Positions 14,956 through 43,726 of a stretch of 64,000 nucleotides of DNA are shown here, one piece after another; position 1 is the stretch's first letter; every line of letters starts with the position of its first letter. The stretch is from assembly GCA_946409635.1 (NCBI GenBank), contig CAMJXD010000001.1:124001-188000 (forward strand). The letters are read 5' to 3'. Position numbers and translations under genes: made by a program. Origin of the DNA: an uncultured Prevotellaceae bacterium (lineage in GTDB: Bacteria > Bacteroidota > Bacteroidia > Bacteroidales > Muribaculaceae). The notes under the pieces were generated by a model. It saw nothing but the letters and a program-made list of their open reading frames with translations, ran no database searches and was not told where the DNA came from.

Positions 14956-17367
14956 TTATGGCCACATGCTTGTCAACACATAGTTGAGCAGGGTCGAAAT
15001 ATCCTGAATGTCGACCTTACCGTCATAGTTGCAGTCGGCAGCCTGCATATCAACGCCCTCGGTAATATTGTTCAACAGCATATTGATCAGCTTTGTGACG
15101 TCACCAACGTTGACCGAGCCGTCTCCATCGACGTCACCGCGCAGTGATGACGATTCCAGCAACTGGACTTCCTTGATGTTGCTCCAGCTACTCTCGGTAC
15201 CGTTGACATAATAGGCCTTTACCCTGTAGAGGTACTTAGCACCGGGGGTGAGACCTGTGACGTTGTAGAACTTGTCAGGGGTGATGTTCTCAAAGAGGTA
15301 GTTCTCCTCGCCGTCGCGCGCAGCCGTCAGTGAGAAGGGCTCAGGATCCTCGATCTGGCCACCGTAGATCTTGATGGACTGGATCTCGGGATAGTTACCG
15401 CAATTGAATTCCACCTTAGTGCTAGCGGTGTTATCCAGCACGACGAGGTAGGTCTTGACTTCCTTGGCCAGGATCAGGGTGCGGGTTGCGTCCTCGGTAG
15501 AAACGGTGAGGCGCGTGTTGGCACCGCTGGTGTAGGCCTTGGCCTTGATAATGATGCTTATCTTGTCGAAGGCATCCATATCGCAATTGGCCGTGAATAC
15601 AGAGTTCTGCGAAGCCGATACAAATCCGCCGTCGAGGAACAATCTCGAACCCGTGAAGGTCCATCCCTCAGGCATGTAGTTGCTGGCATCCGTAGCGTGG
15701 TTGGTGCTCTCCTGGGGCACACCGCTCCAGTCGGCCTCGGTGAGCAGGGTCACATCGGGCTTGGTCTTCACCTCAAGTGAGTAGCTGGTGACATTCTCGG
15801 CGGGAGTAGCATCGGTCCAGTCGGCACGGAACGAGGTAGCGGTCACTGTCGACTCGTCGATGGGTTGCATCACGGGACGATACAGTTCATAAACCGATGT
15901 GCCGGTCAATGCAATCACGTAATCCTCGGCACCGGGGGTGCTGATCGTGACCGTGGCGGTATACTCACCCTCGGCCTTGGGCGAATAGGTGACAACAACC
16001 GACTCGCTCACCTTGTTGTCCGCATCGGGAGTAAGGGCAGCCTTGTCGATACTGAACACGCCGCTGGGGTCGTTGAGCGTAACCGTCACGCCTCCCTCCA
16101 GGTTACGGCCAGTGACATTGAAGTTGGCAGTAGCCGTCTGGTTCTTGAAGCAAGCCATCGACAGCGTGCTGGCATCGGCCTTGATTCTGGGCGTCTTGAT
16201 GGGCGGCTGGATACCGATAACCATCTGCTGGTACTGGTTGAAGCCGTTAAATGAATTCAGGGCATAATAGTTATTGTCATCGCCACTCCAGCCGAAATTG
16301 ATGTGATACCTGTCGGTTGAAGCATTATAACCATCCACGTTGAAGGCATGGCCGCCATCGCCAACAGCGCAGAAGACGATGGGACGTCCCTCGATAAGCT
16401 CATCCTGGATCAAGGCAGCCCACTCGGCATCGCTGTAGAGGGTCTGTCCACCGCTGTAGGAGCTGGTCTTCTTTACCACGCGCACCGTCTCCTCGTCATA
16501 GCCGAAGAACTTAAACGCATCGGCAATGAGGCTCACACTGTCAACGCTGATACCACTGCCACCGGCAGCCGATGTGCCATACTCCATGCGCTCGGCCTGA
16601 CCGACGTAGCGCATGAGGGTAGCGACAGCACTGGCCTCGGCAGCAGTATAGGAGTTGGAGTTGGTGCCATAGGTGTCACGCATGTTGTCCCAGTCAAAGG
16701 TAACAGGGGGCAAGGCAGCGACATCGACCTCGGTATAATTATCACCCCACCATGACCAAGTAGTCGTCAATCGGCACTTATAGGCAGGCACTTCGGGCGT
16801 CTCAAAATCAGGATATTTCCAGTAGTGGAACACCATGGCTGCCGAGGTTGCAGGGCAGCCGGTCAAGCACTGGTAGCCATTAATTTTACACTGGTTCCAG
16901 TAGGGAGCTTCCTGATCCCAGAGCGCGGTCAACAGGGGCTCTACACTGGGGATATAGGCAGCCTTGACCGAGGGCGTTTCGACCACCAAGCTCTCATGAG
17001 CCTGCAGGTATTCGATCTGCTCCTTGAGCATCATCAGCAGCGCCTTCATGTTGCAGGGGATCTTGTCATAGTCCAGGGGATAGTCGCCATAGCCCAGGAT
17101 CTGCTCGCTACGGTCATCGCCCGAGACCACAATATAGCCATTGGGGGTGTTGAAGATGTAGAAAGCGGCAAGGTCGCTCCTCTTGGAGTTCTTCTCGACG
17201 TGGACCAGATTCAAATCGCCCTTGATGGGAGCCCGAAGCCGGCCCAGGTTGGTGTTCTGATGAATAAACTTCTGGGCTGTAGCCTTGGCCGACGACAGGT
17301 CAACCGGAGCAGCCGATAACTGCAGGGCCGCAAGAACCACTGCGGCAAACAATAAAAATTTCCTCAT
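14956..17367 (-). CDS. Secreted C10-family cysteine protease with C-terminal dockerin-like repeats (copy 1)
   Basis: An 803-residue streptopain/interpain-type protease. Order: signal peptide (1-20); Spi-type inhibitory propeptide (about 21-135) with YIVVSGDDRSEQILGYG; C10 catalytic domain (about 140-390) with the nucleophile Cys171 in TGCPATSAAMVFHYW and His340 in GHAFNVDGY; an Ig-like domain; an FnIII-like domain; a jelly-roll-like insert; and two dockerin type I-like repeats (from GDVDGDGSVNVGDV). Active-site residues are intact. Exported proteins of this kind digest host or dietary protein. Monocistronic by position: promoter-like sequence upstream and a strong terminator downstream. Most diverged dockerin of the four tandem copies. 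Confidence 0.92.
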   Translation of the reverse strand: MRKFLLFAAVVLAALQLSAAPVDLSSAKATAQKFIHQNTNLGRLRAPIKGDLNLVHVEKNSKRSDLAAFYIFNTPNGYIVVSGDDRSEQILGYGDYPLDYDKIPCNMKALLMMLKEQIEYLQAHESLVVETPSVKAAYIPSVEPLLTALWDQEAPYWNQCKINGYQCLTGCPATSAAMVFHYWKYPDFETPEVPAYKCRLTTTWSWWGDNYTEVDVAALPPVTFDWDNMRDTYGTNSNSYTAAEASAVATLMRYVGQAERMEYGTSAAGGSGISVDSVSLIADAFKFFGYDEETVRVVKKTSSYSGGQTLYSDAEWAALIQDELIEGRPIVFCAVGDGGHAFNVDGYNASTDRYHINFGWSGDDNNYYALNSFNGFNQYQQMVIGIQPPIKTPRIKADASTLSMACFKNQTATANFNVTGRNLEGGVTVTLNDPSGVFSIDKAALTPDADNKVSESVVVTYSPKAEGEYTATVTISTPGAEDYVIALTGTSVYELYRPVMQPIDESTVTATSFRADWTDATPAENVTSYSLEVKTKPDVTLLTEADWSGVPQESTNHATDASNYMPEGWTFTGSRLFLDGGFVSASQNSVFTANCDMDAFDKISIIIKAKAYTSGANTRLTVSTEDATRTLILAKEVKTYLVVLDNTASTKVEFNCGNYPEIQSIKIYGGQIEDPEPFSLTAARDGEENYLFENITPDKFYNVTGLTPGAKYLYRVKAYYVNGTESSWSNIKEVQLLESSSLRGDVDGDGSVNVGDVTKLINMLLNNITEGVDMQAADCNYDGKVDIQDISTLLNYVLTSMWP

Positions 17368-17682: not shown

Positions 17683-20055
17683 TCAGTTGTTATTCAGCAG
17701 GATGGTGATGAGACGGGTGACATCGGTGATGTTGATTTTGTCATCGCCATTGAGGTCGGCACAAAGGTCGCAGATTTCCCCCTGGCCGCTGGTCAGATAA
17801 CTGATCAAGACGACAACGTCGGTGACGTTGACATGGCCATCGTGGTTCACATCGCCCGGCTGGCTGCCATGTGCTGCCTCATGCAGGGTGACCATCTCGA
17901 CGTTGCTCCATGCACTCTCGGCACCGTTGACATAGACGGCCTTGACCCGATAGAGGAAGCTACCGCCAGCCGTGAGGTCACTGACGGTATAGGACTTGCC
18001 CGATGTGATATTCTCAATCAGGCGGTAGTCCGTTCCATCGGCCTCGGTTGTCGAGCCCTGTGTGGCATCGCCAGCATAGATCTTGATGTCGCGTATCATG
18101 GGATAGTAACCAGCCTTGAAGATGACCTGCTCGGCCTCGGCACAGTCGACGACAAGGGTCTGAGTCTCATAGGCATACATAAACACAAGTTCCTGGGTGC
18201 CCTGACTCGTGGTGACTTCGAGCTCTGAACCGGTACCGTAGTAGCCATAGGCTCGCGCCGTGATTTCGATGGTCATCTTGTCATATCCCTTGAGGTCGAG
18301 CACGCTGGTGGTGATTGTGCCCCTGTTACGGATGCTCACACAGCCGCCCTCGAGGTTAAACTCGCTGCCGTTGAAGGTCCATCCCTCGGGCAGATAGTCG
18401 CTGGCATGCGATGCCTGGTTGGTGGGAGCCATCTGGGGCAAGTTGCTGAAGTCGGCTTCAACGAGCAGGCTATAGGCAGGCTTAGGCTTCACCTCGAGGG
18501 TGTAGCTGGCGACATTGCCATCGGGGGTCGGATCGGTCCAGCCGGCCCTGAACGAAGTGAGCGTCACGCGCGCATCGTCGGCTGGCAGCATCACTGGATC
18601 GTAGACCTCGAGCGGTGCATTGCCCTGTAGCGTAACCGTCACAGGGTCGGTACCCGGGCTGGTGCAGACAAGGGTAGCACTATTGGAGCCCACTGCTGTG
18701 GGAGAGTAAGTCACGGTAATGTCGGTTCCCTGCTCGGCGATGTCACGCGGCACGGTCACGGCATCGATGGCAAACACTCCGTCGGCATCATTCAACGCCA
18801 GTGTAACGTCACCCGTCAGGTTGGTTCCCTTGAGCGCGACGACAGCCGTGGCCGACTGGTGGATGTAGCACTGCAGCTCAACCTGGTTGGGATAAGCCTG
18901 AAGCCTGGGGGTCTGGTAATCGGCAGGCGGCTGGATGCCGACTACCATCTGCTGTGATGTCCCGAAGGTGTAGTCGCCATAGGAGAAGGCGTTCAAGGCA
19001 AAGAAGCCGTTGCCGCGTCCTCCCCACCCCCAATTCACATGGTAGGTGTCGTCGGTCGCGTCATAGCCGTCGACGTTGAATGCATGTCCACCACCATCGT
19101 AGTTGTCATAGGCGCAATAGACGATGGGGCGTCCCTGGGCGAGTTCATTCTGGATCATGGCGGTCCACTGAGCGTCGGAATAGTTGGGCAGACCCAACGC
19201 ATCGGTCATGTAATAAACCTGGGCATTCTCATCATATTCAAAGAGCAAGACGGCCCGCATGATGTCGTCGATGAGGGCACCGCTGCCCGAGATGGTATAG
19301 TCCATCATCTCGGCCTGGCCAATGTAGCGCATCAGGTGGGCCACCGCAGCGGCCTGGTCAGGGGTATAGTTGCCCCCGACATAGCGGTCAAGCATATTGT
19401 TCCAGTCAAAGACCGTGGGGGGCAGCTCGGCGAGTTCAGCTCCATACTGGTCAGTCGTGTAAGCAGGCACGGCAGGCGTCTGCTGCTTGGGATACTTCCA
19501 GTAGTGGAACACCATGGCCAGCGCCGTGGCAGCGCAACCCGTGTAGCAGGTGTCGGTGCCATAGACGGGACACTCATTCCAGTAAGGGGCATTCTGGCTC
19601 CACTGGGCAGTGACCAACGGATTGACCGACGCTGCCCTTGACGGAGACCGACGCGATATCGAAGCAGCGTCGAGGTCGGGATGTTCCTGCAGGTATTGCA
19701 GCTGCCGCTGGTAAAAGGAGAGCCAAAACCTCATATTGGCTGGCAGGCGCTGGAGGTCGGTCACCTCACCGTCGCCACAGGCCAGCACAGGGCGTGCCCG
19801 GTCGTCGCCCGACACGATGACAAACGAGCCCTGGGCGTTGAACACATAAAAAGTCGGCGTAGCGGCCTGCTTGGAACCGGGCATAGCAAATCCCAACTCA
19901 ACCTTGTGTACGGCCCGGGCCGAAAGGCGACCCTGGTCAACCTGGCTCAAGAGAAAACGTTGGGCTGTTGTCTTGGCCGATGCTTCATCGACGGGGGCGG
20001 CCCATGCCTGCATCACCGTGATGAGCAGTGCAGCAAGAAACAAAATCTTTTTCAT
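17683..20055 (-). CDS. Secreted C10-family cysteine protease with dockerin-like repeats (copy 2)
   Basis: A 790-residue paralogue of its neighbours. Signal peptide 1-19, propeptide to about 140 (FVIVSGDDRARPVLACG), catalytic domain with Cys174 in YTGCAATALAMVFHYW and His324 in GGGHAFNVDGY, then VNWGWGGRGNGFFALNAF. Ig-like and FnIII-like domains follow, then a jelly-roll-like region, then the dockerin pair GDVNHDGHVNVTDV and ADLNGDDKINITDV. The linker between the repeats contains CDLC. It has its own full-consensus promoter 90 bp upstream, so it is transcribed separately from copies 3 and 4. The catalytic pair is intact; substrate specificity cannot be read. Confidence 0.92.
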   Translation of the reverse strand: MKKILFLAALLITVMQAWAAPVDEASAKTTAQRFLLSQVDQGRLSARAVHKVELGFAMPGSKQAATPTFYVFNAQGSFVIVSGDDRARPVLACGDGEVTDLQRLPANMRFWLSFYQRQLQYLQEHPDLDAASISRRSPSRAASVNPLVTAQWSQNAPYWNECPVYGTDTCYTGCAATALAMVFHYWKYPKQQTPAVPAYTTDQYGAELAELPPTVFDWNNMLDRYVGGNYTPDQAAAVAHLMRYIGQAEMMDYTISGSGALIDDIMRAVLLFEYDENAQVYYMTDALGLPNYSDAQWTAMIQNELAQGRPIVYCAYDNYDGGGHAFNVDGYDATDDTYHVNWGWGGRGNGFFALNAFSYGDYTFGTSQQMVVGIQPPADYQTPRLQAYPNQVELQCYIHQSATAVVALKGTNLTGDVTLALNDADGVFAIDAVTVPRDIAEQGTDITVTYSPTAVGSNSATLVCTSPGTDPVTVTLQGNAPLEVYDPVMLPADDARVTLTSFRAGWTDPTPDGNVASYTLEVKPKPAYSLLVEADFSNLPQMAPTNQASHASDYLPEGWTFNGSEFNLEGGCVSIRNRGTITTSVLDLKGYDKMTIEITARAYGYYGTGSELEVTTSQGTQELVFMYAYETQTLVVDCAEAEQVIFKAGYYPMIRDIKIYAGDATQGSTTEADGTDYRLIENITSGKSYTVSDLTAGGSFLYRVKAVYVNGAESAWSNVEMVTLHEAAHGSQPGDVNHDGHVNVTDVVVLISYLTSGQGEICDLCADLNGDDKINITDVTRLITILLNNN

Positions 20056-20300: not shown

Positions 20301-22259
20301 TTATTGTTGCGCAATCTTGTTGATGAGCATCGTGATATCGGTGATGTTAACGTTGCCATCGCCATTGAGGTCTCCGCAGATTTCGCACACCTGGGCCTCT
20401 ACCGACACGTGGTTGATCATCTGCATCACATCGGTGATATTGACCTTGCCGTCGTGGTTCACATCGCCCATCTCATAGCCGTGTACATCGCCACCGCCGG
20501 CCAGGGTCACCTCCTGGGTGTTGCTCCAGGCGCTCTCGGTGCCGTCGGTATAGATGGCCTTAACCCTGTACTGATAGGTACCGGCTGCCAGATTCTCGAC
20601 GTTGTAGGACTTGTCAGTGATGTCGCTGATTGTGGTAACAGCGCCACCAGGAGCAGTCACCTCGAGGGTGTAGCTCTTCACGTTATTGACAGCTGTCTTG
20701 TGGTGCCAGTTGGCACGGAACGAGGTAGCTGTGACTGCGGTCTCGCTTGCGGGAAGCATGACGGGAGTCACCTGCTGGGTCGTGCCGTTGGCCGTGCTGT
20801 AGAAGTAGATGTACAGGGGCTCAGCACCGGGGCTGCTCAGGGTGATGTAGGCATAGTGCATGCCAGCATCGTCGGTGGGGTTATAGGTCACGGTGATGAC
20901 CTTGTGGTTGGCAGCGTCGAGGTCGCTCAGGGCGATGGCATCAACGTCGGTTGAGATGAAGCCGTTCTCGTCATTGACGGTAACCGTGATGCCGTCGGTC
21001 AGGTCAAGACCGATTACATCGACCTTGGTGGTCACGCTCGAGCCGACATTGGTCTCGGGCTGGTTGACAATCGTGTGGGCCACGATGCGCGGGGGAACGG
21101 CTACACCCTCGGGGGTGGGCTTCACGCCGACAAACATCAGCTGGAAGTACTTATAGATAGTGATACCGTAGCCAAAGGCATTGAAGGCATACCAGCCATT
21201 GCGGTCCTCGCTCTGGCCGAAGTTCACATGGTAGGTGTCGTTGGCAGCATCATAGCCATCGACGTTGAAGGCATGACCGTAGAAGCTGTCACCGGCATAG
21301 GTCGACGAGTAAGCGCAGTACATCAGGGGGCGGCCCTCGATGAGCTCGGTCTGCATCATGGTCGTCCACTCATCGTCGTCATAGAGCTGGGTCATCGCCT
21401 GGTCATAATCGTTCTTGAGCACATAGTGGGCACCGGCATCATAGCCAAAGAGCCTGAGAGCCATGAGCATCTGCTCCTCGTCGGCACCGCTCATCTGGGG
21501 ATTATAGTCCATGAACTCGGCCTGGCCGACATAGCGCATCAGGTTGGATATGGCATCGCGCTCGGCCTCGGTCCAGTTCTCATTCTTGTAGGTGTTGCGC
21601 ATGTGAGCCCAGTCGAAGGTGTAAGCAGGCAGGGCAGGCACATAGACGCCTCTCTCGCCAGTATAGGCGGGCAGAGCAGGCGAGGCAACGGGATACTTCC
21701 AGTAGTTCATCACCTGAGACAGTGACACGGCTGCGCAGCCCACCAGACAAGTGCTGCCACCATCCTTGGGGCAAAGCCTGTTGTAAGGCGAGCGGCCATT
21801 GTTGCTGCCCTGCTGCCACAGGGTGGTGAGCAGGGGCTGTACGGTCTGACCCAGGTTGGCGTTGCGGGTCTTGACCACCTGTCCGGGGTGGGCCTGCAGG
21901 TACTCCATCTCGGCCTTGTACATGTCCAGGAAGAACTGCATGCTCTGGGGCAGGTCGTTCATGTTCTCGAGAGCGCCGTCGCCATAGGCGAGCACCTCGC
22001 GTGCGCGGTCGTCACCCGAAACGATGACGTAACCCTTGTCGGTGTTCACGACATAGTAAGCGACCTTGAGGACGTCGCTCGAGTTTTTCACTTCATGAGT
22101 CCACTTGATGGAGGGAGCCGAGGACATGAAGCGGCCCTTGGCTGTCTGAGACATCAAGAAACGCTGTGCCGACTGCTGAGCGGTTGCCAGGCTGACATCG
22201 GCTGCACTAACCTGCATTGCAGCAAGTGCCATGGCAGCAAGAAAAAGAATCTTCTTCAT
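20301..22259 (-). CDS. Secreted C10-family cysteine protease with dockerin-like repeats (copy 3, shorter)
   Basis: At 652 residues this copy lacks the jelly-roll-like insert of copies 1, 2 and 4. Signal peptide 1-19, propeptide to about 135, catalytic domain with Cys175 in CLVGCAAVSLSQVMNYW and His329 in YGHAFNVDGY. An Ig-like domain, one FnIII-like domain (about 510-590) and a dockerin pair follow. The repeats are GDVNHDGKVNITDV and GDLNGDGNVNITDI with CEIC in the linker, nearly identical to copy 4, which points to a recent tandem duplication. It starts 45 bp after the copy 4 stop and shares its transcript and the terminator at 20204-20246. Confidence 0.92.
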   Translation of the reverse strand: MKKILFLAAMALAAMQVSAADVSLATAQQSAQRFLMSQTAKGRFMSSAPSIKWTHEVKNSSDVLKVAYYVVNTDKGYVIVSGDDRAREVLAYGDGALENMNDLPQSMQFFLDMYKAEMEYLQAHPGQVVKTRNANLGQTVQPLLTTLWQQGSNNGRSPYNRLCPKDGGSTCLVGCAAVSLSQVMNYWKYPVASPALPAYTGERGVYVPALPAYTFDWAHMRNTYKNENWTEAERDAISNLMRYVGQAEFMDYNPQMSGADEEQMLMALRLFGYDAGAHYVLKNDYDQAMTQLYDDDEWTTMMQTELIEGRPLMYCAYSSTYAGDSFYGHAFNVDGYDAANDTYHVNFGQSEDRNGWYAFNAFGYGITIYKYFQLMFVGVKPTPEGVAVPPRIVAHTIVNQPETNVGSSVTTKVDVIGLDLTDGITVTVNDENGFISTDVDAIALSDLDAANHKVITVTYNPTDDAGMHYAYITLSSPGAEPLYIYFYSTANGTTQQVTPVMLPASETAVTATSFRANWHHKTAVNNVKSYTLEVTAPGGAVTTISDITDKSYNVENLAAGTYQYRVKAIYTDGTESAWSNTQEVTLAGGGDVHGYEMGDVNHDGKVNITDVMQMINHVSVEAQVCEICGDLNGDGNVNITDITMLINKIAQQ

Positions 22260-22304: not shown

Positions 22305-24683
22305 TCAGTTCTCATTCAATATCTTATTGATCAAGATCGTGACATCGGTGATGTTGACCTGCCGGTCGCCATTGAGGTCACCACAGACGTCACACACGGG
22401 AGCTTCGATCGACACGTGGTTGATCAACTGCATCACGTCGGTGATGTTGACCTTGTGGTCGTGGTTCACGTCGCCCAGGTCATAATTGTGGGCGCCCTCA
22501 ACCAGGGTCACGTCCTGAGCGTTGCTCCAAGCGCTCTCGGTACCATCGATGTACAAGGCCTTGACCTTATAGCGGAACTTGCCGCCGGCAGTGAGGCCCG
22601 TCACCGTGTAGAACTTGTCGGTGATGCCGGTGATGGTGCGCTGGGTTTCATCGCCGCTCTCGCTGGCACGCAAGGTGGACTCACCCGGCTGGCCGGCATA
22701 GACCTGCATATTCAACAGGTAGGGATTTCCGCTCTTGTTGGTAATCGTCACATGGTCGGCATCGGCACAATCCAGGACGGCAACATACTGGGTAAATGTC
22801 CTGTCGGCAACACTGATCACGGTCTCAGCAACACTGGTCGAGACCGTGAGGCTTGATGCCGAGTAACCTGACTTGGCCGTAATGACCACAGTCATCTTGC
22901 CTTCGTCGGCCAAGCTGTAGGTGGGTGTCGTAAAGCCAAAGTTACCCGAGATTGAAATACAGCCATCCTCGGCCCACAGGCCAGCACCGGCAAAGGTCCA
23001 ACCAGCGGGGAAATAATTGGCTGCATTCTGGGTCTGATCGGAGAATCCTGCCTCGGCCACGCTGCTCCAGTCAGCTTCTTCAAGGAGGTAGTAAGTGGGC
23101 TTGGTTTCCACTTCTAGGGTGTAGCTTGTGACATTCTGGGGGATGGTCGCATCGGTCCAGTCGGCACGGAACGAGGTCAAGTTGACAGCGCTCTCGTCGG
23201 CAGGCAGCATCACGGGGTCAAAGACGGAGATATCGGCCTTACCGTTCAGGGAAACCACCTTGTCCTGGGCCCCGGGACTGCTAAGCGTCACCGTCGCAGG
23301 ATGCTCGCCTGCCGCATCAGGATTGTAGGTCACCGTGATCAACTTGACATCCTGGCTCTCGTCGAGCGTTACAGTGGTTGCGTCGAGGGCATAGACGCCG
23401 TTGGCGTCGTTCAGCGTCAGGGTAATGTCACCCGTGAGCAGTTTTCCCCATACCGTGAAGGTAGCGGTAGAGGGCTCACCCAGGCGGGCATGCATGTTCA
23501 ATTGATCCTGATATACCTTGATTGTAGGCTCCTCAGCAATCGACGGATAGATGTTCTTCACGATGCGTTGTCCCAAGTGATAGTTTGCACCCTGGTTGGA
23601 AAACGCGTTCATGGCAAAGTAGCCATTACCGGTGCCGCTCCAGCCCCAGTTGATGTGGAACATGCCGTCGGTGGCCCGGTAGCCGTCGACATTGAAGGCA
23701 TGGCCCGAATAGCTGTTGTGGCCGCTGTTATAGTCAAATGCGCAGAAGACCATCGGCCTGCCGGCCTGGAGCTCTTCCTGCATCAGAGTGCACCACTCAT
23801 CATCGTCGATATAGGTGGTTTCCTCGCCTGTTTCAAAGTTCATCGTGCCCTTGTAGACAGCCACAGCATCCTCGTAGCCCAGGAGATGGCAGGCCCTGAC
23901 AACGTCGTCCTCCCAGGCATCGCTGCCATCACGGGCATAATTCATCTGCTCGGCCTGGCCAATGTAACGCATCAGTTGGGCCACTGCTGTGGCATTGAAC
24001 GATTCATACTGGCCAAACCAGTAACGAGGGAGCATGTGCTCCCAGTCAAACGTCACCGAGGGCAGTGCCGAGAGCGTGAACTTCCCGTTGCGGGTAGTAT
24101 AGCCCGGAATGACCTGCGTGGGCACGTCGGGGAATTTCCAATGATAGAACACCTGTGCCAACGAAGTCGTTGCACAGCCTGTCATCGAGTTGACATCGCC
24201 GTCCTTGGGGCACATGTTGTAATACGGAGAACCCTGGTCCCACGTGGCCTCGATCATCGGCTCAACGTTGACGCCGCCCCTCATAACGGGCACGCTGACC
24301 TTGAGGTCGGGATTCTGGTACAGGTATTCCATCTGACGCTTGTAGTAGGAGAGCCAGAACTTCATGTTCTCGGGCATGGCATTCATGTCGAGAGTGCCCT
24401 CGCCATAGGCCAGAATCTCGCGTGCACGGTCATCACCGGCGACGATGACAAAGGCATCGCTGGCATTGAAGATGTAATAGGCCGACTGTGACAGGTGGCT
24501 CGTGGCTACGGTCTCGGCATGCAACAGCTTGAGGTCACCAATCGGTCTATCACCCAATCGGTTAGAAGCATTATTCTGCATAAAATGAAGGGCTCTGGCT
24601 TGAGCCTGGGACACAGTGACGGGTCCGGCCGAAGCTTGCATCGCCGTCAGCACGAGTGCGGCAAGGAACAGGATTTTTTTCAT
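22305..24683 (-). CDS. Secreted C10-family cysteine protease with dockerin-like repeats (copy 4)
   Basis: A 792-residue member of the tandem array. Signal peptide 1-19, propeptide (FVIVAGDDRAREILAYG at about 78-94), catalytic domain with Cys170 in MTGCATTSLAQVFYHW and His328 in SGHAFNVDGY, then INWGWSGTGNGYFAMNAF. Ig-like, FnIII-like and jelly-roll-like regions follow. The dockerin pair is GDVNHDHKVNITDV and GDLNGDRQVNITDV with CDVC between them. It is the promoter-proximal gene of a two-gene operon with copy 3. Signal peptides of copies 2, 3 and 4 all start MKKILFLAA, supporting recent duplication. Confidence 0.92.
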   Translation of the reverse strand: MKKILFLAALVLTAMQASAGPVTVSQAQARALHFMQNNASNRLGDRPIGDLKLLHAETVATSHLSQSAYYIFNASDAFVIVAGDDRAREILAYGEGTLDMNAMPENMKFWLSYYKRQMEYLYQNPDLKVSVPVMRGGVNVEPMIEATWDQGSPYYNMCPKDGDVNSMTGCATTSLAQVFYHWKFPDVPTQVIPGYTTRNGKFTLSALPSVTFDWEHMLPRYWFGQYESFNATAVAQLMRYIGQAEQMNYARDGSDAWEDDVVRACHLLGYEDAVAVYKGTMNFETGEETTYIDDDEWCTLMQEELQAGRPMVFCAFDYNSGHNSYSGHAFNVDGYRATDGMFHINWGWSGTGNGYFAMNAFSNQGANYHLGQRIVKNIYPSIAEEPTIKVYQDQLNMHARLGEPSTATFTVWGKLLTGDITLTLNDANGVYALDATTVTLDESQDVKLITVTYNPDAAGEHPATVTLSSPGAQDKVVSLNGKADISVFDPVMLPADESAVNLTSFRADWTDATIPQNVTSYTLEVETKPTYYLLEEADWSSVAEAGFSDQTQNAANYFPAGWTFAGAGLWAEDGCISISGNFGFTTPTYSLADEGKMTVVITAKSGYSASSLTVSTSVAETVISVADRTFTQYVAVLDCADADHVTITNKSGNPYLLNMQVYAGQPGESTLRASESGDETQRTITGITDKFYTVTGLTAGGKFRYKVKALYIDGTESAWSNAQDVTLVEGAHNYDLGDVNHDHKVNITDVMQLINHVSIEAPVCDVCGDLNGDRQVNITDVTILINKILNEN

Positions 24684-36063: not shown

Positions 36064-37454
36064 GACCGCAGTATCTTATCAATCAATGCATTGACGTCAG
36101 CAATATTAATCTCTCCGTCGCCATTGACGTCGCCCGTAGCAGCGGTGTTGCCCGACAGGATCATGTCGATGACGGCATTGACGTCGGCAATGTTGACCTC
36201 GCCGTCCAGGTTCACGTCGCCCAGATTAACGGGGCCGGGACCCGGCACGCCGCTGTCCACGTTACGGCCAATCTTGTAGACGGCCATGCCGTTATAGGCC
36301 TTGAACGTGAGCAGCGTCACCTCCTCAAAGCCCTCGTCGTCAACGCCATACTCCACAGCAAAGCAATGCACACGCAGGCCGCTGTCGTTGACCTTGCCGA
36401 TGCTGTCGGCGGGAATCTGCCAGTACTTGGTCATGCCGATGAGCGACGGCCCCTCGCCCAGCTCACAGATGTTGGCCTGACAACCGTGGCCGTTGCCGTT
36501 CATGTCGGCATTGACATAGACAAAGAAGTTGCGGTCCTCGAGCTGGAACTCGATGCAGCCGTTGGGCGTCGCCTGGGGCCACAACGTGGGATCCACCTCC
36601 TCAAACGACTCGATGACCGACCCCGACAGGTCATAAATCACCGGTGCCGTGTCAAAGCAGTCGATGTAAAACATGTCGCCGCTATAGCGTGACTCCTCGT
36701 CGGTGCCCTCGATCATCTTGATGACCGGAGCCAGCGAGAAGCCGGTCTTGGTCTCGGGGTAGAAGTTGATGACATCCATATAGGGGTCGCCGTCAAAGCC
36801 GCCTTCCCACTCGCCGCCCTGATCGGCATGCATGCGATACAGGGTGGGGAAACCCGGGTCGGCCGTGGCGCCCGACACCGTCATGATGTTGCACTCGGCC
36901 TGCTCGAGCGTCAGGTCGCCCAGCACGTCCAGATAGTCGGTGCGCTGCGGAGCATCGCCCTTGTCCATCTCGACGACCAGCGTGAGTTCACCCGTCAGCG
37001 TATCCACCAGATAGACGGGCACATACTGCTGCGCCGTGCTGGTCATGGGAGCTACCCAGATGTGATGGAAACTGTCCTTACCGATGCTGGCCACACCCAG
37101 GAAGCGGCCGTAGGGGGCCCCGTCGAGTGTCAGGGGCAAGTCCTCGAGCTCACTGCCGTCGGCTGCCGAGAACCGATGGATGACCGACTGCGAAATCGTG
37201 TCACCATCGACGATGACGGCACGCTCCTCGCTGCGGGCCACATAGATGATACCCTGATCCATGGTCGCCGTGCGTGCCCGCTGGTTGCAGATGGCGTTGT
37301 CGGTATAAGCTTTTCCGGCATGCACACGGTCCAGGATCCACTGGTTCACGATCTTGATGCCGCCCTGCTCGGGATAGGTCTGACCGTCGGTCACGGCCAT
37401 CGCACTGAATGCAGCCGCCAACAGGGTGATGAGTAGAAGTAGCGATTTTTTCAT
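36060..37454 (-). CDS. Secreted propeller-like protein with dockerin-like repeats, paralogue A
   Basis: A 464-residue exported protein of no family I recognise. The start at 37454 (MKKSLLLLITLLAAAFSAMA) gives a clean signal peptide; an open frame extends 30 codons further upstream but reads as noise. The body has repeating short beta segments (IIYVARSEERAV, VPVYLVDTLTGELTLV, YSGDMFYIDCF, NFFVYVNADMNG), suggesting a beta-propeller. It ends with dockerin repeats GDVNLDGEVNIADV and GDVNGDGEINIADV. It is clearly paralogous to the next upstream gene, sharing EWEGGFDGDPY and FKAYNGMAVYKIG-type blocks. Translationally coupled to the phosphodiester-glycosidase gene. Confidence 0.8.
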   Translation of the reverse strand: MKKSLLLLITLLAAAFSAMAVTDGQTYPEQGGIKIVNQWILDRVHAGKAYTDNAICNQRARTATMDQGIIYVARSEERAVIVDGDTISQSVIHRFSAADGSELEDLPLTLDGAPYGRFLGVASIGKDSFHHIWVAPMTSTAQQYVPVYLVDTLTGELTLVVEMDKGDAPQRTDYLDVLGDLTLEQAECNIMTVSGATADPGFPTLYRMHADQGGEWEGGFDGDPYMDVINFYPETKTGFSLAPVIKMIEGTDEESRYSGDMFYIDCFDTAPVIYDLSGSVIESFEEVDPTLWPQATPNGCIEFQLEDRNFFVYVNADMNGNGHGCQANICELGEGPSLIGMTKYWQIPADSIGKVNDSGLRVHCFAVEYGVDDEGFEEVTLLTFKAYNGMAVYKIGRNVDSGVPGPGPVNLGDVNLDGEVNIADVNAVIDMILSGNTAATGDVNGDGEINIADVNALIDKILRS

Positions 37455-37614
37455 TGTCAAGAAGGATGTAGAGTTGGTTATGAATTCAGGAAAACCGTTG
37501 CGGACTGACGCGGACGTGGACATAGCACTCCGTTCAATCCGCAACGCTTAGTCACTTATGTTTCGCAAGCAGATCACTTGCTTACTGTCGGTAATGGATC
37601 CGCTGCAGGCAGGA

Positions 37615-39003
37615 TTAATGAGCCAGAATCAAGGCAATCAGCGCGTTGACGTCGGCAATGTTGACCTCGTCGTCGCCATTGACGTCGCCGGCAGGAGTCG
37701 TCTTGCCCGACAGGATCATGTCGATGACGGCATTGACGTCGGCAATGTTGACCTCGCCGTCGCCATTGACGTCGCCGGGAGTTCCGGGACCGGGCTCATC
37801 GCCGGTGATGCCCTTGCCGATCTTGTAGACCGCCATGCCGTTGTAGCACTTGAAGATAAACAGGGTTATCTCCTCGTTGCCCTGGGCATCGGTGCCATAC
37901 TCCACGTTCATGCTCTGCACGCGGGTTCCGCCGTCGCTCACGGCGCCCAGCTCATCGGGAACCATCCAGTAGCGCTGCATGCCGCCCAGCGACATGCCCT
38001 CGCCCAGCTCACAGATGTAGACCTGGCAGGCCTTGTTGACCATCGTCGCCTCGTCGACACCGGTATACTGGGCAGCGACATAGACGATGAAGTTGCGCCC
38101 GTCGAGCGTAAACTCACACACGCCGTTGGCACCCACGTCCATGGGCCAGAAGGCGGGATCCACGTTCTCAAAGTTGTCCACCATCGTGCCCGTCTCGTCA
38201 TAGAGGATGGGCGATGTGGTGAAACCATCGATGTAGAACAGCGTGCCGCTGTAGTCGTCCTCGCCGTTGAGCACCATCTTGGCTACGGGAGCATAGCCCC
38301 ACTGGGTCACGGTCTCGGGATAGAAGTCCAGGATGGCGAGATAGGGGTCGCCGTCAAAGCCGCCTTCCCACTCGTCGCCCTGCTCGGCATGCCAGCGGTA
38401 GATGTACTCTGAGCTGGCACCCACGCTCATGATGTTGCACTCAGCCTCCTCGCGCGTGATGTCGCCCATCACGTCGATGTAGTCGCAACGCTGCAGCGCG
38501 TCGCCCTTGTCGAGCTCGCCCATCAGCGTGAGTTCGCCGGTCTCCTTGTCAACCAGATAGACGGACTGTGTAGTAGCCAGGTTGCTGGAGAACGGTGCCA
38601 TGTACAGGTGGCCAAAGTTGTCCATGCCCACCGTGTTGCTGCTCAGCGTGGCACCGCCATAGATGTTGCCGTCGAGCGTCAAGGGCAGTTCCTTCACCAG
38701 CTCACCGTTGGTAGCATCCACCTTGTAGATGACACTCTGGGACAGGGTGTCGGTGCCCTGAATCACCGTGTTGGCGTTAGAGCGGGCAATGTAGATGTAG
38801 CCATCCCTCAACACCGCAGTGCGGGCACTGGTATTGCAGTAGGGCTGGTTGGACCACTGCTCAGGGGTGTGGGCACGGTCCTGGATCCACACGTTCTTGA
38901 TGCCGATGCCGTTCACCGGTTCATACTTCACCCCATCGGTGATGGCCCATGCGCTCACACTAGCCGTCACCATCAATAAAGCCGAAAGTAATAATTTTCT
39001 CAT
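37615..39003 (-). CDS. Secreted propeller-like protein with dockerin-like repeats, paralogue B
   Basis: A 462-residue exported protein, about the same length as its downstream paralogue and sharing TARTAxxxxGxIYIARS, LPLTLDG, YLVDxxTGELTL, EWEGGFDGDPY and YNGMAVYKIG. Signal peptide 1-19. No enzymatic motif is evident; a beta-propeller binding or structural role is a guess. Dockerin repeats are GDVNGDGEVNIADV and GDVNGDDEVNIADV. It is first in the 39003-to-30294 run; the 160-bp gap to paralogue A holds a GTTGCGGA/TCCGCAAC hairpin (about 37493-37550). Promoter-like sequence at 39062-39092. Confidence 0.8.
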   Translation of the reverse strand: MRKLLLSALLMVTASVSAWAITDGVKYEPVNGIGIKNVWIQDRAHTPEQWSNQPYCNTSARTAVLRDGYIYIARSNANTVIQGTDTLSQSVIYKVDATNGELVKELPLTLDGNIYGGATLSSNTVGMDNFGHLYMAPFSSNLATTQSVYLVDKETGELTLMGELDKGDALQRCDYIDVMGDITREEAECNIMSVGASSEYIYRWHAEQGDEWEGGFDGDPYLAILDFYPETVTQWGYAPVAKMVLNGEDDYSGTLFYIDGFTTSPILYDETGTMVDNFENVDPAFWPMDVGANGVCEFTLDGRNFIVYVAAQYTGVDEATMVNKACQVYICELGEGMSLGGMQRYWMVPDELGAVSDGGTRVQSMNVEYGTDAQGNEEITLFIFKCYNGMAVYKIGKGITGDEPGPGTPGDVNGDGEVNIADVNAVIDMILSGKTTPAGDVNGDDEVNIADVNALIALILAH

Positions 39004-39061
39004 AAATTACTGTTTTTAAAGTTATTATATCATTAATTCATGTTCACTGAAACTATCCTCG

Positions 39062-39092
39062 CAAAATAACAAAAAAAACTCCAATCATCAAA
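39062..39092 (-). promoter_or_regulatory. Probable promoter of the 39003-to-30294 dockerin operon
   Basis: Minus-strand TTTG (39089-39092), 19-nt spacer, TTATTTTG (39062-39069), one mismatch to the -7 consensus. It is 58 nt before the start codon. Confidence 0.55.
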
Positions 39093-39195
39093 GCATGACC
39101 GAATAATTCTTTAGAAAAAAAACGCGCCCCTACCACGGGCTAGGCTCGATGAATGCTACCACCCCGCGGGCACAGCGGACTTTTCCCATGCTGCA

Positions 39196-39209
39196 CCCAC
39201 GCGCGTGGG
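39196..39209. other. GC palindrome downstream of the CotH-like gene
   Basis: A perfect 14-bp palindrome CCCACGCGCGTGGG lies about 45 bp beyond the CotH-like stop, next to a short TGGGAAAAA direct repeat (39206-39226). It may be part of a terminator; no clear T tract follows on the minus strand. Nothing else is seen in the 39093-39251 spacer. Confidence 0.4.
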
Positions 39210-39251
39210 AAAAATGGGAAAAATGGGTCGTTTGCTCCCGCAAGCCCTGTT

Positions 39252-40847
39252 TTACCCATTCAGGATGAGGTCGATGAGGCTGTTGACGTCGGCAATACCC
39301 GTCTCGCCGTCGCCGTTGACGTCGGCGGCTACACTGGATTGGCCTGCGAGAATCATGGCAATCAAGGCGTTGACGTCGGCGATGTTGACCTCGCCGTCGC
39401 CGTTGACGTCGCCCTTGATATCAACCGGGTCGGGAGTGTATCCCAGCTGCTGGTCCATCCAGGCGATGCGGTCCCTGATCCAGCTCTTCATAAAGGCGAT
39501 CTCGTCGGCAAAGTCGGTCGAGACATAGTAGTTGGGCCAGACATACTCGCCCCACTTGGGATAGGCCAGACTGTTGCGCTGCTCGGCACCGCCCGAGGTG
39601 AGCAGTGTAGCGATGGAGTCGATGGTGGCCTCCCAGTTGCTGTCGCTCAGGTTAGAGCGGCGGTACTGGGCCCATCGCGCCCTGAGCTTGGAGGTGTAGT
39701 CGGGGTCGCTGTTGAGGCGCTGCCACCAGAAGGGTACCAGGTTCATGATGGCCATGGGCCTGAGCAGATCGTTGTACTCATAGACCCACCCCGTGGTCTC
39801 ATAGCCGTTGTAGTAGTTGCTGTTGCCGTAGCACAGGTTCATGTCCCAGAGCACCATCTTGAAGCGCGGGTCCACGCTGTCGCGGTTCTTGTAGAACTTG
39901 CCGCTCAGGCGGTAGCCGTCGACGTTGTGTCCCAGTTCCTGGGCCAGCTGGTAGTCGATAAACGACATGGGGTCCATATACTTGCTATAGCCATTGACGG
40001 GGTCGCAGTAATCATCGCTGTCCAGCACGTCCTCCCAGCGGTCGATGGCGCTGTGGATGGCGTCCAGCTGGTCGGGCGTCAAGTCCTCGTAGTCGGGGAA
40101 CTTGTACTGGTAGTTGATCACGCGGGAAGTGATGAGCCGGCCATCACTGAATCGGGGAAAGTGCTTTGACCTGTAGGTGGGTTCATCGGTGCGGTCCACT
40201 TCCATCAGGTAGCCGCCGGTGAGCGCGTCGCCCTCGCTGCCGGGGTCGGGCAGGTTGAGGCGGCTTTTACCCTGGGACACCTGCTCGGTGAGAATGAACA
40301 CGCCATAGTACAGTCCGTCGACCAGCACCTCGCAGTAGCGGCCGTCGGGTGTGTATTCCATCCAGGGTCGCGCCATCTCAAAGGCAAACATGTCTCTCAT
40401 CATGCTCTTGTCGTTGTAGGGCGCCAGCAGGATCCACTTGCTGTCCTTGCCCATGCCCAGCAGGGAGACCTTCTTCCAGTCGCCACCCTGCTCCAGGGGT
40501 CTGTCGATGGGCCTGAAGGAATAAGGTTTCTTGGCGCTATAGGAGAATGATGTGTTGCCACGGTAACGGATGCCCACATAACCCCTGTAGTCGATGTGCT
40601 GGCCCGGATGGGCCACGGTGTCGGCATAGTTCATCTGGCCGTCGCCGTTGTGCAGCACCGTCATGCGCGCCGTCACGCGGGTGTCACGGTTGACGGTGGC
40701 CCCGTCGAGGTTGATCCACACGATGGGCAGATTGGTCGAGTCAAGGTGAACCCACTTGTAGATTGGCGCCTGCTGCGGCTCGGACTGGGCCCTGACGGCG
40801 CTTGCCAGTAATAAGGTGTATGTCAAGAAAAGCAGTATCCGTCTCAT
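39252..40847 (-). CDS. Secreted CotH-kinase-family protein with dockerin-like repeats
   Basis: A 531-residue exported protein. The start at 40847 (MRRILLFLTYTLLLASAVRA) gives a signal peptide; an ATG seven codons upstream overlaps the promoter and is less likely. The CotH domain (about 75-430) shows IRYRGNTSFSYSAKKPYSF, KWILLAPYNDKSMMRD, YYGVFILTEQV and FKMVLWDMNLCYGN. CotH proteins are atypical protein kinases known from spore coats and also common, with unclear targets, in Bacteroidetes surface proteins. Dockerin repeats are GDVNGDGEVNIADV and ADVNGDGETGIADV; the second has a Thr-Gly substitution. Monocistronic. Confidence 0.87.
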   Translation of the reverse strand: MRRILLFLTYTLLLASAVRAQSEPQQAPIYKWVHLDSTNLPIVWINLDGATVNRDTRVTARMTVLHNGDGQMNYADTVAHPGQHIDYRGYVGIRYRGNTSFSYSAKKPYSFRPIDRPLEQGGDWKKVSLLGMGKDSKWILLAPYNDKSMMRDMFAFEMARPWMEYTPDGRYCEVLVDGLYYGVFILTEQVSQGKSRLNLPDPGSEGDALTGGYLMEVDRTDEPTYRSKHFPRFSDGRLITSRVINYQYKFPDYEDLTPDQLDAIHSAIDRWEDVLDSDDYCDPVNGYSKYMDPMSFIDYQLAQELGHNVDGYRLSGKFYKNRDSVDPRFKMVLWDMNLCYGNSNYYNGYETTGWVYEYNDLLRPMAIMNLVPFWWQRLNSDPDYTSKLRARWAQYRRSNLSDSNWEATIDSIATLLTSGGAEQRNSLAYPKWGEYVWPNYYVSTDFADEIAFMKSWIRDRIAWMDQQLGYTPDPVDIKGDVNGDGEVNIADVNALIAMILAGQSSVAADVNGDGETGIADVNSLIDLILNG

Positions 40848-40856
40848 TTCAGCCGC

Positions 40857-40908
40857 AAAAGTAGTCATTTTGCGCCATTTTCAACCAATATTTTGTTAAA
40901 AATGGCGC
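40857..40908 (-). promoter_or_regulatory. CotH-like gene promoter with overlapping 10-bp inverted repeat
   Basis: TACTTTTG (minus, 40857-40864) matches the -7 element and ends 9 nt before the ATG, implying a very short leader. A perfect inverted repeat (40872-40881 with 40899-40908, GCGCCATTTT and its complement) straddles the expected -33 region, a good place for a repressor or activator site. Confidence 0.5.
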
Positions 40909-40955
40909 CATTACTCCTTTCAGTAGCTATTCACCGAAAATATCTCGCTGTGTTT

Positions 40956-41121
40956 CACGCTAAGCCGCTAAGTCGCTAAGATGTTGATTTTAAGACTCAT
41001 CCATATTTTGCCTTGGTGGCTGCCATAATCTATTATGAATATATTGAGACCTTAAAACAAGAGGTGAATACTCATTATGACTTTGATAATTAATACCTTA
41101 GCGGCTTCGCGACTTGGCGTG
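40956..41121. repeat. Imperfect 25-bp inverted repeats, dispersed CTTAGCG-type element
   Basis: Bases 40956-40980 and the reverse complement of 41097-41121 match at 21 of 25 positions, around an AT-rich 116-bp centre. A shorter pair of the same motif occurs at 58384-58433. Together they look like a dispersed intergenic repeat or small non-autonomous element. No gene is seen in the 40909-41161 spacer. Confidence 0.55.
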
Positions 41122-41161
41122 AGGTTTTGTGTCGTGCCTAGACGCTGAACAATGACTCCTT

Positions 41162-43726
41162 TCAGCCCAGGATATGGTCGATGACGGCATTGACGTCGGC
41201 AATGTTGACCTCGCCGTCGCCGTTGACGTCGGCCCTGCGGTTGCCCGCTCCGCCCAAGATAGCGTCAATCAGTGCATTGACGTCGGCAATATTGACCTCT
41301 CCGTCAGCATTCACGTCACCCCTGACGGCCTCATGGTAGACAAAGCTGCGGACATCGGTATAGTCGGTATACTGCACCGTGGTGCCCGAGGCTAGTGAGC
41401 GATAGGCATAACGGGCGCGCACATAGTAGCGGTTGCCGTCGGTGAGCTTGCCCGCCCCCTTGATAGTCCCCAACTCGGGCGTGCAGAAAACGCCCTCGAG
41501 CGTTCCGTTGTAGGACGTGCGCGTGGGAAAAGACGTCGAACTGCTGATCTGCACCCGCAGCGAGGCTACGCCCTCGACGGGCACAACACTCACCGCATCA
41601 TAGGAGTAAAGCTCCTCGCCTTCCTGGGCGGGGGTGATGAACGACGGCACCGGGGGCACCACTTCAATAGTGGTGAATGCCGAGACCGGGGTGACGACCG
41701 TAGCCGAGCCGTAGGTAGCCGTCACGCGCACATAATAGGACGTGGCGCCGGCAAGACGATAGCGGGGCACGGCCCATTGCGGCTCACCGAGGACGATGAC
41801 TGTGTCGGCATTGCTCATCGTCGCCGTCGTGGAGAGTTCCAGCAGATAGCGGGTGCCGGGAGCACCGGGGGTCCACGTGATGACAGGAGTCAGCGACACC
41901 GATGCAGCCGCAGCGGCTGGCGACGTGACACGCATCGCCCCCAGGGTGAAGCTGCGCAGGTCGCTGGCATTGTCCCACTGATTGAGACCGCGCGCCACAA
42001 TGCGCCACCAGTAGCGGCCCTCGGTAAGTCCAGGGATTCGGGGCAAGGGGCAGTTCATCGAGTCGACCTCGAGCTGAGCCACCAGTGAGTCCATCTGCTC
42101 GTCGGCAAAGACCTGCACGACATAGGTGGCTGCATTGCCGTTCCATTGCAGGAAGGAGAGTTCGGGCACCTCGGCCCCATCGTCGGGGTAAAGCAGTTGA
42201 GGCTTGGTCGCCGCCGACGGAACGGCACCCGGTGTTACCGGGGCATACTCGTTCTCCCAGCGGTCGAGAATCGAGACGGCATATCGGTAGCCCTCACGCT
42301 TTGCGGCGGGAACGCTGTACGACGCCCAGTAGCTCACGCCGTCGATATAGCAGGCTTGGCCATGGAAATCAGCATCTGCAACCCCATCAGGGATGGCATA
42401 CACGACATAGCGCACATTGGGGATGCTGTCCCACGTGAGGGTGCCGTCGTTACAGGCAAGGTTAGTCACCGTTGTATAGGTCTGGCTGGGCCGGATCCAC
42501 GCCGGGGCGGGATTCAGCGCCACTGTGGGGTAGAGGGAGTCCTTGAGCCACGTGCGCAACTGGCGCACCTTGCCGTCGACGACCTCCTTCTTGTTGCGCC
42601 ACGTGCCGTAGCGGAAGTAGACCATGCCGGGGTTGCCGCCGGCTGCCATCGCCTCGCGCATGACCCGCCCCTGCTTGACAAACTCGGCCAACGTCCATCC
42701 TTCCTCGTCAGGAATCCACTGGCTGATGAAGATGTGGCGGTTGAAGCGTGCGGCCATCTTGCCCCACCACGTGGTCACGCCGGTATAGGTGCCTGTTGTC
42801 TTCCAGTAGACTTGTGGCGCCAGGAAGTCGATGGTGCCACGGGTGACCCATGCCATGGGGTCGCTGTAGATCTGGTTATACTGCCAGTCACTGCCCGGGC
42901 TGGGCTCCACGCCATACTGGTCGGCCACGGCCTGGCTGCTGCAAGCCACCCCGGCCGGACCGATGCCAAAGCGCACCCACGGCTTGACCTGCTTGACCAT
43001 GTCGTTCACGTCCTTGACCATCTGGTTGACGTTCTCGCGCCGCCAGTCGCCCTGGCTCATTGTGCCGCCACTGGCCCTGTAAGCGTTATACAGGTCGGCA
43101 TCAAGCGAGAACGACGGGTTGTCCTGGTTGTAGAAGTAGTCATCAAACACGAGACCGTCAACGTCATATTTCACGATGATATCCTTGCACACGTCGACCA
43201 CGCGCTGGCGCACCTCGGGAATGCCAGGATTGAGCACCGTCTCGTAGCTGGTTGTCAACAGCCACTCGGGGTGAGTGTAGATGTAGTCACGCTCGCTCTG
43301 GCCCCACTTGTTGTCGCCGTGGCCATAGCGGTAAGGATTGACCCAGGCATAGACCTCGATGCCGCGCTTGTGGGCCTCCTGGACAAGATACTCCAGCGGG
43401 TCGAATGCCGGAGCTACGCCGCGCGTGCCCGACACGTAGCTCGACCACGGCTCGTAGGCCGAATTGTACATCGCGTCACACATCGCACGCACGTGGTAGT
43501 AGACCACGTTGATGTGATTGACCTGCATGGTGTCGAGCATCTTGCGGCACGCATTCTGCATGATGGGGGTGTTGCTGGCGGTGATGGCGCCGCTGGGCCA
43601 GTCACTCAGGTAAGCCGTCATCCAGATGCCGCGCTGCTCCCGCTTGGGGGCCACATCGGTAGCCGAGATGGCAAAACTGGCGGCCATCGCCGCCAGTAAT
43701 GCTATCAGGATTGATCTTCTTTTCAT
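41162..43726 (-). CDS. Secreted GHL10/DUF187-type glycoside hydrolase with dockerin-like repeats
   Basis: An 854-residue exported enzyme. Signal peptide 1-20; TIM-barrel GHL10 domain (about 30-395) with REQRGIWMTAYLSDW, NVVYYHVRAM, YAWVNPYRYG and VDGLVFDDYFY, whose paired aspartates sit where the family's catalytic acids are. E. coli DigH, a relative, cleaves denuded peptidoglycan strands. FnIII-like domains follow (about 400-820), then dockerin repeats GDVNADGEVNIADV and ADVNGDGEVNIADV. It is the last gene of the SusC/SusD operon and its probable enzyme, suggesting a GlcNAc- or MurNAc-containing target, but that is inference. Confidence 0.87.
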   Translation of the reverse strand: MKRRSILIALLAAMAASFAISATDVAPKREQRGIWMTAYLSDWPSGAITASNTPIMQNACRKMLDTMQVNHINVVYYHVRAMCDAMYNSAYEPWSSYVSGTRGVAPAFDPLEYLVQEAHKRGIEVYAWVNPYRYGHGDNKWGQSERDYIYTHPEWLLTTSYETVLNPGIPEVRQRVVDVCKDIIVKYDVDGLVFDDYFYNQDNPSFSLDADLYNAYRASGGTMSQGDWRRENVNQMVKDVNDMVKQVKPWVRFGIGPAGVACSSQAVADQYGVEPSPGSDWQYNQIYSDPMAWVTRGTIDFLAPQVYWKTTGTYTGVTTWWGKMAARFNRHIFISQWIPDEEGWTLAEFVKQGRVMREAMAAGGNPGMVYFRYGTWRNKKEVVDGKVRQLRTWLKDSLYPTVALNPAPAWIRPSQTYTTVTNLACNDGTLTWDSIPNVRYVVYAIPDGVADADFHGQACYIDGVSYWASYSVPAAKREGYRYAVSILDRWENEYAPVTPGAVPSAATKPQLLYPDDGAEVPELSFLQWNGNAATYVVQVFADEQMDSLVAQLEVDSMNCPLPRIPGLTEGRYWWRIVARGLNQWDNASDLRSFTLGAMRVTSPAAAAASVSLTPVITWTPGAPGTRYLLELSTTATMSNADTVIVLGEPQWAVPRYRLAGATSYYVRVTATYGSATVVTPVSAFTTIEVVPPVPSFITPAQEGEELYSYDAVSVVPVEGVASLRVQISSSTSFPTRTSYNGTLEGVFCTPELGTIKGAGKLTDGNRYYVRARYAYRSLASGTTVQYTDYTDVRSFVYHEAVRGDVNADGEVNIADVNALIDAILGGAGNRRADVNGDGEVNIADVNAVIDHILG

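Follow-up and report, generated by a model that had tools for sequence, protein, structure and literature searches.

Abundant dockerins and divergent cohesins in an uncultured lineage of Bacteroidales: a candidate non-cellulosomal docking system

Among the dockerin-cohesin systems described so far, the amylosome of Ruminococcus bromii and the system of Ruminococcus albus are close to the one considered here, as they too combine many dockerin proteins with few cohesins; for Clostridiales of this type, surface anchoring through a single cohesin has been proposed in the case of R. albus (PMC6118326; this and the other articles cited by accession are drawn on in excerpt). The cellulosomes of clostridia and of Ruminococcus flavefaciens offer further parallels, namely type I dockerin pairs and, in relatives of our organism, multi-cohesin proteins that end in a dockerin. 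Another point of reference is NagJ, a non-cellulosomal cohesin-dockerin system, as in pairs of the NagJ type docking is used for non-cellulose enzymes. Here we describe a stretch of 64,000 nucleotides (hereafter the window; contig CAMJXD010000001.1, positions 124,001 to 188,000) from an uncultured Prevotellaceae bacterium assigned by GTDB to Muribaculaceae, in which ten secreted proteins end in a pair of dockerin repeats, and the divergent cohesins encoded elsewhere in the same genome and in its genus. Unlike R. bromii and R. albus, the bacterium belongs to the Gram-negative Bacteroidales, the cohesins of its genome lie below Pfam detection, C10 proteases outnumber every other enzyme among the sampled cargo, and some scaffolds of the lineage carry tails resembling those of the type IX secretion system (T9SS). 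NagJ systems, in turn, differ in phylum, secretion route and scale.

Dockerins in organisms of this kind have been reported before, in rumen studies of 2020 and 2023. Bacteroidetes genomes assembled from rumen metagenomes contain dockerins and no recognisable cohesin, and the authors asked whether such bacteria have no need of cohesins or possess ones too distant to be recognised, citing a moose study for the same pattern (PMC7260996). Similarly, Muribaculaceae C941, which may be the genus of our bacterium, is described as having dockerins and GH13 "without cohesion", and a dockerin together with a cohesin is mentioned for rumen Prevotella (PMC9863278). In the passages available from two other surveys, of 2019 and 2022, 79 of 80 cohesin proteins are placed in Firmicutes, the remaining one belonging to an unknown bacterium (PMC6785717), and cohesins are seen in Firmicutes_A only (PMC9177762). 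Several of the cohesin loci described below lie in RUG records, which may be part of the genome set of the former survey. A camel-rumen table of 2018 lists a Bacteroidetes bin with five dockerins and one cohesin gene with tandem domains (Bin136), and another with two cohesins and no dockerin (Bin129; PMC6071333); unlike the genomes discussed here, these bins have few dockerins, and the excerpt contains no lineage-level analysis. To the extent that the open-licence literature allows a tentative judgement, dockerins in such organisms and single cohesin reports are already known, and the new part would be a lineage-wide set of cohesins with their architectures. In this respect the present work differs from the excerpted text of PMC7260996 and PMC9863278, in that a profile tuned to the lineage does find cohesins, together with their architectures and genomic neighbourhood.

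The reading that we favour, with a probability of roughly two in three, is that the dockerin pairs plug secreted cargo into divergent Bacteroidales cohesins, which sit on a small number of secreted scaffolds or adaptors. In general terms, the sequences give good support to a dockerin-cohesin system of Bacteroidales that is divergent and non-cellulosomal: they show abundant dockerins, mostly in C-terminal position, and cohesins that are recognisable by domain identity and architecture, as well as the union of both modules on the same chain and their co-occurrence. Specifically, the cargo, which includes C10 proteases, nucleases, amylases, CotH proteins and leucine-rich repeat (LRR) proteins, would be exported by Sec, its dockerins would bind these cohesin proteins, and assembly would take place outside the cytoplasm, giving rise to a display in the style of an amylosome or cellulosome, with protein, nucleic acid and starch as its targets in place of cellulose.

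The ten open reading frames (ORFs) of the window all lie on the minus strand between positions 14956 and 43726 (Table 1) and, as originally predicted, each of them encodes a secreted protein with a C-terminal repeat pair. Pfam Dockerin_1 (PF00404) exceeds its curated cut-off at the C-terminus of all ten, with E-values from 1.2e-11 to 4.8e-7. Moreover, a profile built from the ten dockerins retrieves dockerins of known structure from the PDB (4fl4_A, E 3.1e-12), so that the resemblance goes beyond chance and, by this evidence, the C-terminal pairs are genuine type-I-like dockerins. The absence of a T9SS sorting domain, which had also been predicted, is borne out: the TIGR04183 cut-off is reached by none of the ten, the sole trace being an internal, sub-threshold match (E 0.13) in the protein at 20301-22259. 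As for the cargo, Pfam recovers the five Peptidase_C10 proteins and the NAGPA, CotH and GHL10 proteins named in the original prediction, but finds in the two proteins described there as propeller-like no domain above cut-off except the dockerin, one of them having a sub-threshold match to DUF4394 (E 0.014). All five C10 proteins possess a Spi inhibitor (I69) propeptide, and their translations all retain the Cys of a GC.A/T motif and the His of GHAF, which we take to be the catalytic residues.

That no cohesin was in sight, as initially noted, is correct for the window, where no ORF of at least 80 amino acids (aa) in the 64 kb matches the cohesin profile described below, but wrong for the genome as a whole. 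The standard Pfam cohesin model (PF00963) has no match in the source genome at E 0.01, and it matches in 23 of the 36 congeners, 17 above cut-off. A profile tuned to the lineage (A1) was made from 56 cohesin domains of relatives, taken from 20 loci chosen by Pfam cohesin match, of which 19 belong to the genus and the last to G039, a genome from another family of the order (G, C and L numbers are our labels for genomes, contigs and loci, G000 being the source genome). In contrast to the standard model, A1 gives two clear matches in the source genome, C15:8643-8996 (E 1.0e-22) and C3:91870-92223 (E 6.8e-17), and a partial one, C19:7700-7801 (E 1.1e-4). The protein on C3 reaches only E 0.14 with Pfam, and the cohesins of this genome have likely diverged too far for the standard search model. 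A1 matches occur in all 37 genomes of the genus, 2-16 in each, a figure which is partly given by construction, since the profile was built mostly from this genus. Compared with the PDB, A1 has its best match in 5n5p_A (4.8e-8), followed by 6kgc_A (1.3e-5) and 5m2o_A (1.9e-5). The first 17 rows comprise 11 entries named as scaffoldin, cohesin or cellulosome-anchoring protein, four of NagJ and two called "Endoglucanase", in both of which chain B is a type I dockerin. The NagJ chains (2ozn, 2jh2), matched weakly at E 0.004, presumably represent its cohesin module.

The source genome (2.57 Mb in 134 contigs, 83.6% complete) has at least 89 Dockerin_1 matches, the best 87 of 198 first-look candidates having been scored. 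The genome-wide count of proteins with the C-terminal pair that had been proposed as a check stands, for the parts read, at 57 dockerin ORFs, 36 of them in the three largest contigs, C1-C3 (565 kb), and the other 21 in contigs chosen for their dockerin or cohesin matches. The ORF ends within 15 aa of the dockerin in 30 of these 36 and in 18 of the 21, the exceptions including dockerins at the N-terminus, ahead of an FGE-sulfatase domain, and others with a C-terminal tail behind them. In particular, the dockerin is situated toward the N-terminus, with an FGE-sulfatase-type domain after it, at C2:115155-117233 (by Pfam) and C8:17083-18198 (by eye). Two endonuclease I proteins, at C2:12390-14840 and C2:76421-79114, have an internal dockerin and then a C-terminal tail, recognised by eye in the former and above the T9SS cut-off in the latter, with both tags on one chain. 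Beyond the source genome, each of the 37 genus genomes has at least 29 Dockerin_1 matches. Dockerins are present in 46 of the 139 other-genus genomes of the family, mostly 1-4 each with the exceptions of G061 (31) and G101 (9), and in 10 of the 24 genomes of the order's other families, where only G039 (38) has more than two. Judging from these counts, the dockerin expansion is essentially confined to this genus among the genomes searched.

The mostly extreme C-terminal position of the pair on unrelated cargo would also be expected of a cohesin-independent tag for sorting, anchoring or processing, that is, of an element that takes over the function of the C-terminal domain of T9SS cargo. The distribution of the two elements at first agrees with this idea, as the genus genomes combine many dockerins with only 5-18 T9SS tails (TIGR04183 at E 0.01; eight in the source genome, seven of them above cut-off), and of the 24 genomes from the order's other families 23 carry no more than two dockerins and 20 carry at least 27 tails. 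In addition, a crude heuristic detects a signal peptide in 56 of the 57 dockerin ORFs, against 140 of 268 other long ORFs, and one dockerin ORF is lipoprotein-like, so that an export route is still needed. This mirror image, however, fails the family control, in which the largest tail counts mean at least 36: sister genera are often low in both elements, and a replacement of the T9SS tail by the dockerin was rejected, as these almost dockerin-free genera often have equally few tails. Unlike a C-terminal sorting tag, some dockerins are N-terminal or stand ahead of a T9SS-like tail. With cohesin domains encoded by the source genome itself, as by every genus genome searched, the need for a cohesin-independent signal, as suggested in the original prediction, is not supported, and we consider such a tag improbable.

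The docking that we favour instead finds support in the architecture of the cohesin proteins. A dockerin lies on the same chain in 29 of the 34 cohesin ORFs of the 20 loci, which were chosen regardless of dockerins; of the five that lack one, two are large proteins of G039, a third measures 452 aa and the remaining two are small. The protein encoded at L058 (918 aa) has six cohesins and ends in a dockerin, and three cohesins followed by a C-terminal dockerin are found at L041, L045, L047 and L057. An LRR region precedes the order cohesin-dockerin-cohesin at L046, L050, L053, L054 and L056, and short cohesin-dockerin proteins of 218-224 aa occur at L049, L053, L054, L056 and L059. In the source genome, the 710 aa ORF at C15:8445-10577 is composed of a signal peptide, BspA-type LRRs, a dockerin (residues 445-502), a cohesin (528-644) and a C-terminal tail; A1 detects single or partial cohesins only and no multi-cohesin protein in this genome, at its stated completeness. 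At the loci found with the C15 protein family, the order dockerin-cohesin-tail, where a tail is at least 20 aa beyond the last domain, recurs in 81 ORFs and dockerin-dockerin-cohesin-tail in 10, with some tandem pairs.

The cohesin fold is a jelly-roll, and A1 domains might in principle be structural or adhesive and not dockerin-binding, in which case the dockerins would be calcium-stabilised C-terminal caps or would have their partners in other species. Such a role would suit the small number of cohesins in the source genome, the protein at L099 (G057, another family), which joins three A1 domains to immunoglobulin-like and InlB-type repeats with no dockerin in the Pfam scan, and the 31 genomes with A1 among the 139 of other genera in the family, most of the 31 having 0-4 dockerins. 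It is made unlikely by the dockerins borne on the cohesin chains themselves, by the fact that the best PDB matches of A1 are cohesins, and by the association of the two modules outside the genus. Specifically, in the rest of the family dockerins are present in 23 of the 31 genomes with A1 and in 23 of the 108 that lack it (p 1e-7 in a Fisher test that makes no correction for phylogeny). Among the 24 genomes from the order's other families, A1 matches are restricted to G039 (24), G057 (3) and G052 (1), and the only one of the 24 with more than two dockerins, G039, is also the one with most cohesins.

The nature of the cargo was surveyed with Pfam in 34 of the 36 dockerin proteins of C1-C3, two ORFs crossing the ends of the stretches being left out; the parts read amount to about one third of the source genome, and the census has 25 of 30 Pfam families listed and 30 of the 34 proteins tabulated singly. 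Peptidase_C10 is found in seven proteins, CotH and BspA-type LRR in five each, endonuclease I in three, alpha-amylase, CBM26 and NAGPA in two each, and FGE-sulfatase and GHL10 in one each. The cargo is largely non-cellulolytic, as had been proposed, but a protease-centred complex is too narrow a description, because nuclease, amylase/CBM26, CotH, NAGPA, FGE-sulfatase-like and BspA-LRR proteins share the tag. Proteases account for 4% of rumen dockerin proteins (PMC7260996, PMC9863278), and the alpha-amylases with CBM26 and dockerin represent a further likeness to the amylosome. A true cellulosome of fibre-degrading Bacteroidales would account for the dockerins and for the multi-cohesin adaptors of congeners (the proteins with three and six cohesins), and many of the relatives come from ruminants. 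In contrast to the clostridial and R. flavefaciens cellulosomes, however, no cellulase family appears among the listed families or in the single tables, dockerin-bearing cellulases or hemicellulases are not seen in the 34 proteins, and the source genome yielded no multi-cohesin protein, all of which renders a cellulosome very improbable.

With regard to localisation, part of the cohesin scaffolds would plausibly reach the cell surface, and stay there, by means of T9SS. This step is suggested by one LRR-dockerin-cohesin family with a T9SS-like tail, together with the presence of SprA and PorU in the genome. SprA is encoded in the source genome (C4:88150-95364) and in 34 of the 37 genus genomes, and PorU-like sortases in all 37, with 2-7 matches each and two in the source genome. 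Tail family A7 aligns with T9SS tails at an hhalign probability of 90.6. Tail family A8, the type found on the source C15 protein, follows roughly the pattern N..G.....P..G.NI.V....DG...T.K, which is sorting-signal-like, and ends six source-genome proteins of varied size (on C15, C19, C3, C1 and C2), two of which are the search seeds.

PorU-like genes stand in arrays, each of two to five copies, at 32 of the 33 loci examined (for example G035 C35, G006 C30 and G018 C13), the single copy being that of G027, and a gene with a Rex-like Pfam domain pair often lies between the arrayed copies. A cohesin gene is located within 10 kb of PorU in 21 of the 33 loci, a raw count, nine loci having first been picked because PorU and cohesin matches shared a contig. 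For the 24 loci picked otherwise (G012, G019, G034, G035 and 20 genomes) the count is 12 of 24, and for the later-fetched loci that are flanked on either side by 8 kb or more, a limit chosen once the distances were known, it is 11 of 13, the misses being G003 and G015. In 15 of the 33 loci a small single-cohesin gene, which in the source genome is the one on C3 (Table 1), lies 6.6-7.6 kb from the array and adjoins a DUF3108 gene, with which it shares the strand in 13 of 15, and a cluster of outer-membrane efflux, HlyD and ABC-2 genes. Judged by eye, four orthologues of the C3 protein (G007, G018, G024, G025) carry an A8-like tail, and the source copy ends where this tail would begin. A possibility, which we regard as rather unlikely, is that cargo with a Sec signal and a dockerin already binds a T9SS-tailed cohesin carrier in the periplasm and is exported via SprA as a complex, the small PorU-near protein with its single cohesin being part of the export chain.

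In clostridial dockerins, position 11 of the loop helps to set the choice of cohesin. Here the dockerins fall at this position into two classes, A or T/S. Where both repeats have one of these letters, they agree in 41 of 43 source dockerins (out of 45 parsed from a total of 57) and in 121 of 133 unique dockerins from all loci, the source included (out of 176 parsed), a regularity that we count in favour of docking. Within the window, six A dockerins occupy the part from 30294 to 43726, and three T dockerins and one of neither class the part from 14956 to 24683. A pairing of the dockerin class of scaffolds with their tail type was considered and rejected, as both tail types bear A and T/S dockerins.

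Several observations weigh against the docking of cargo onto surface-displayed cohesins as we propose it. Dockerins are missing from eight of the 31 genomes of other genera that are A1-positive; together with the two large dockerin-less proteins of G039, these genomes indicate that some A1 domains may be structural. G061 (same family, another genus; 85% complete) has 31 dockerins and no A1 match, and may hold a further diverged cohesin, or truly none. The source genome has two or three cohesins for an extrapolated number of about 160 dockerins, and the universality of A1 in the genus is, as mentioned, partly built in. The agreement between dockerin repeats could reflect the shared ancestry of two dockerin clades. 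Finally, tail family A8 aligns with T9SS tails at an hhalign probability of just 3.3, and no outer-membrane export signal was found in the ten window proteins.

Table 1. Dockerin-bearing ORFs of the window and the small cohesin gene of contig C3
Position	Strand	Feature	C-terminal dockerin	Loop class	Basis
14956..17367	-	C10 peptidase, Spi/I69 propeptide, fn3	~14974-15138	neither (G, then Q)	Pfam
17683..20055	-	C10 peptidase, I69 propeptide	~17695-17859	T	Pfam
20301..22259	-	C10 peptidase, I69 propeptide, fn3	~20313-20468	T	Pfam
22305..24683	-	C10 peptidase, I69 propeptide	~22317-22478	T	Pfam
30294..32864	-	C10 peptidase, I69 propeptide	~30306-30455	A	Pfam
33697..36063	-	NAGPA (phosphodiester glycosidase) protein	~33712-33864	A	Pfam
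36060..37544	-	Secreted protein, dockerin the only Pfam domain above cut-off	~36069-36224	A	Pfam
37615..39003	-	Paralogue of the 36060..37544 protein (54% identity)	~37627-37779	A	Pfam, alignment
39252..40868	-	CotH-family protein	~39264-39416	A	Pfam
41162..43726	-	GHL10 glycosyl-hydrolase-like protein	~41168-41320	A	Pfam
G000 C3:91762-92442 (L094:7763-8443)		Small single-cohesin gene with signal peptide			A1 match

Regarding single features of the window, the true start of the ORF at 36060..37544 is probably downstream of the TTG, as the signal peptide begins within the listed frame. A T9SS tail above the TIGR04183 cut-off (E 3.6e-6) is present at 3843-4010, in an open frame of 106 aa. The dockerin cluster is adjoined at 46679-51706 by what we take, from the translation, to be a pair of SusD-like and SusC-like genes.

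Naming the cohesins of this lineage makes the question raised for rumen Bacteroidetes, that is, whether cohesins are unneeded or too diverged to be recognised, a testable one (excerpted text of PMC7260996). If export in complex with a tailed carrier were true, one sorting signal would serve scores of proteins, which would represent a new route of surface display in Gram-negative bacteria. If the binding is true, new orthogonal cohesin-dockerin pairs would become available, and an uncultured gut lineage would possess its own dockerin-cohesin display, directed at protein, nucleic acid and starch and perhaps linked to T9SS.

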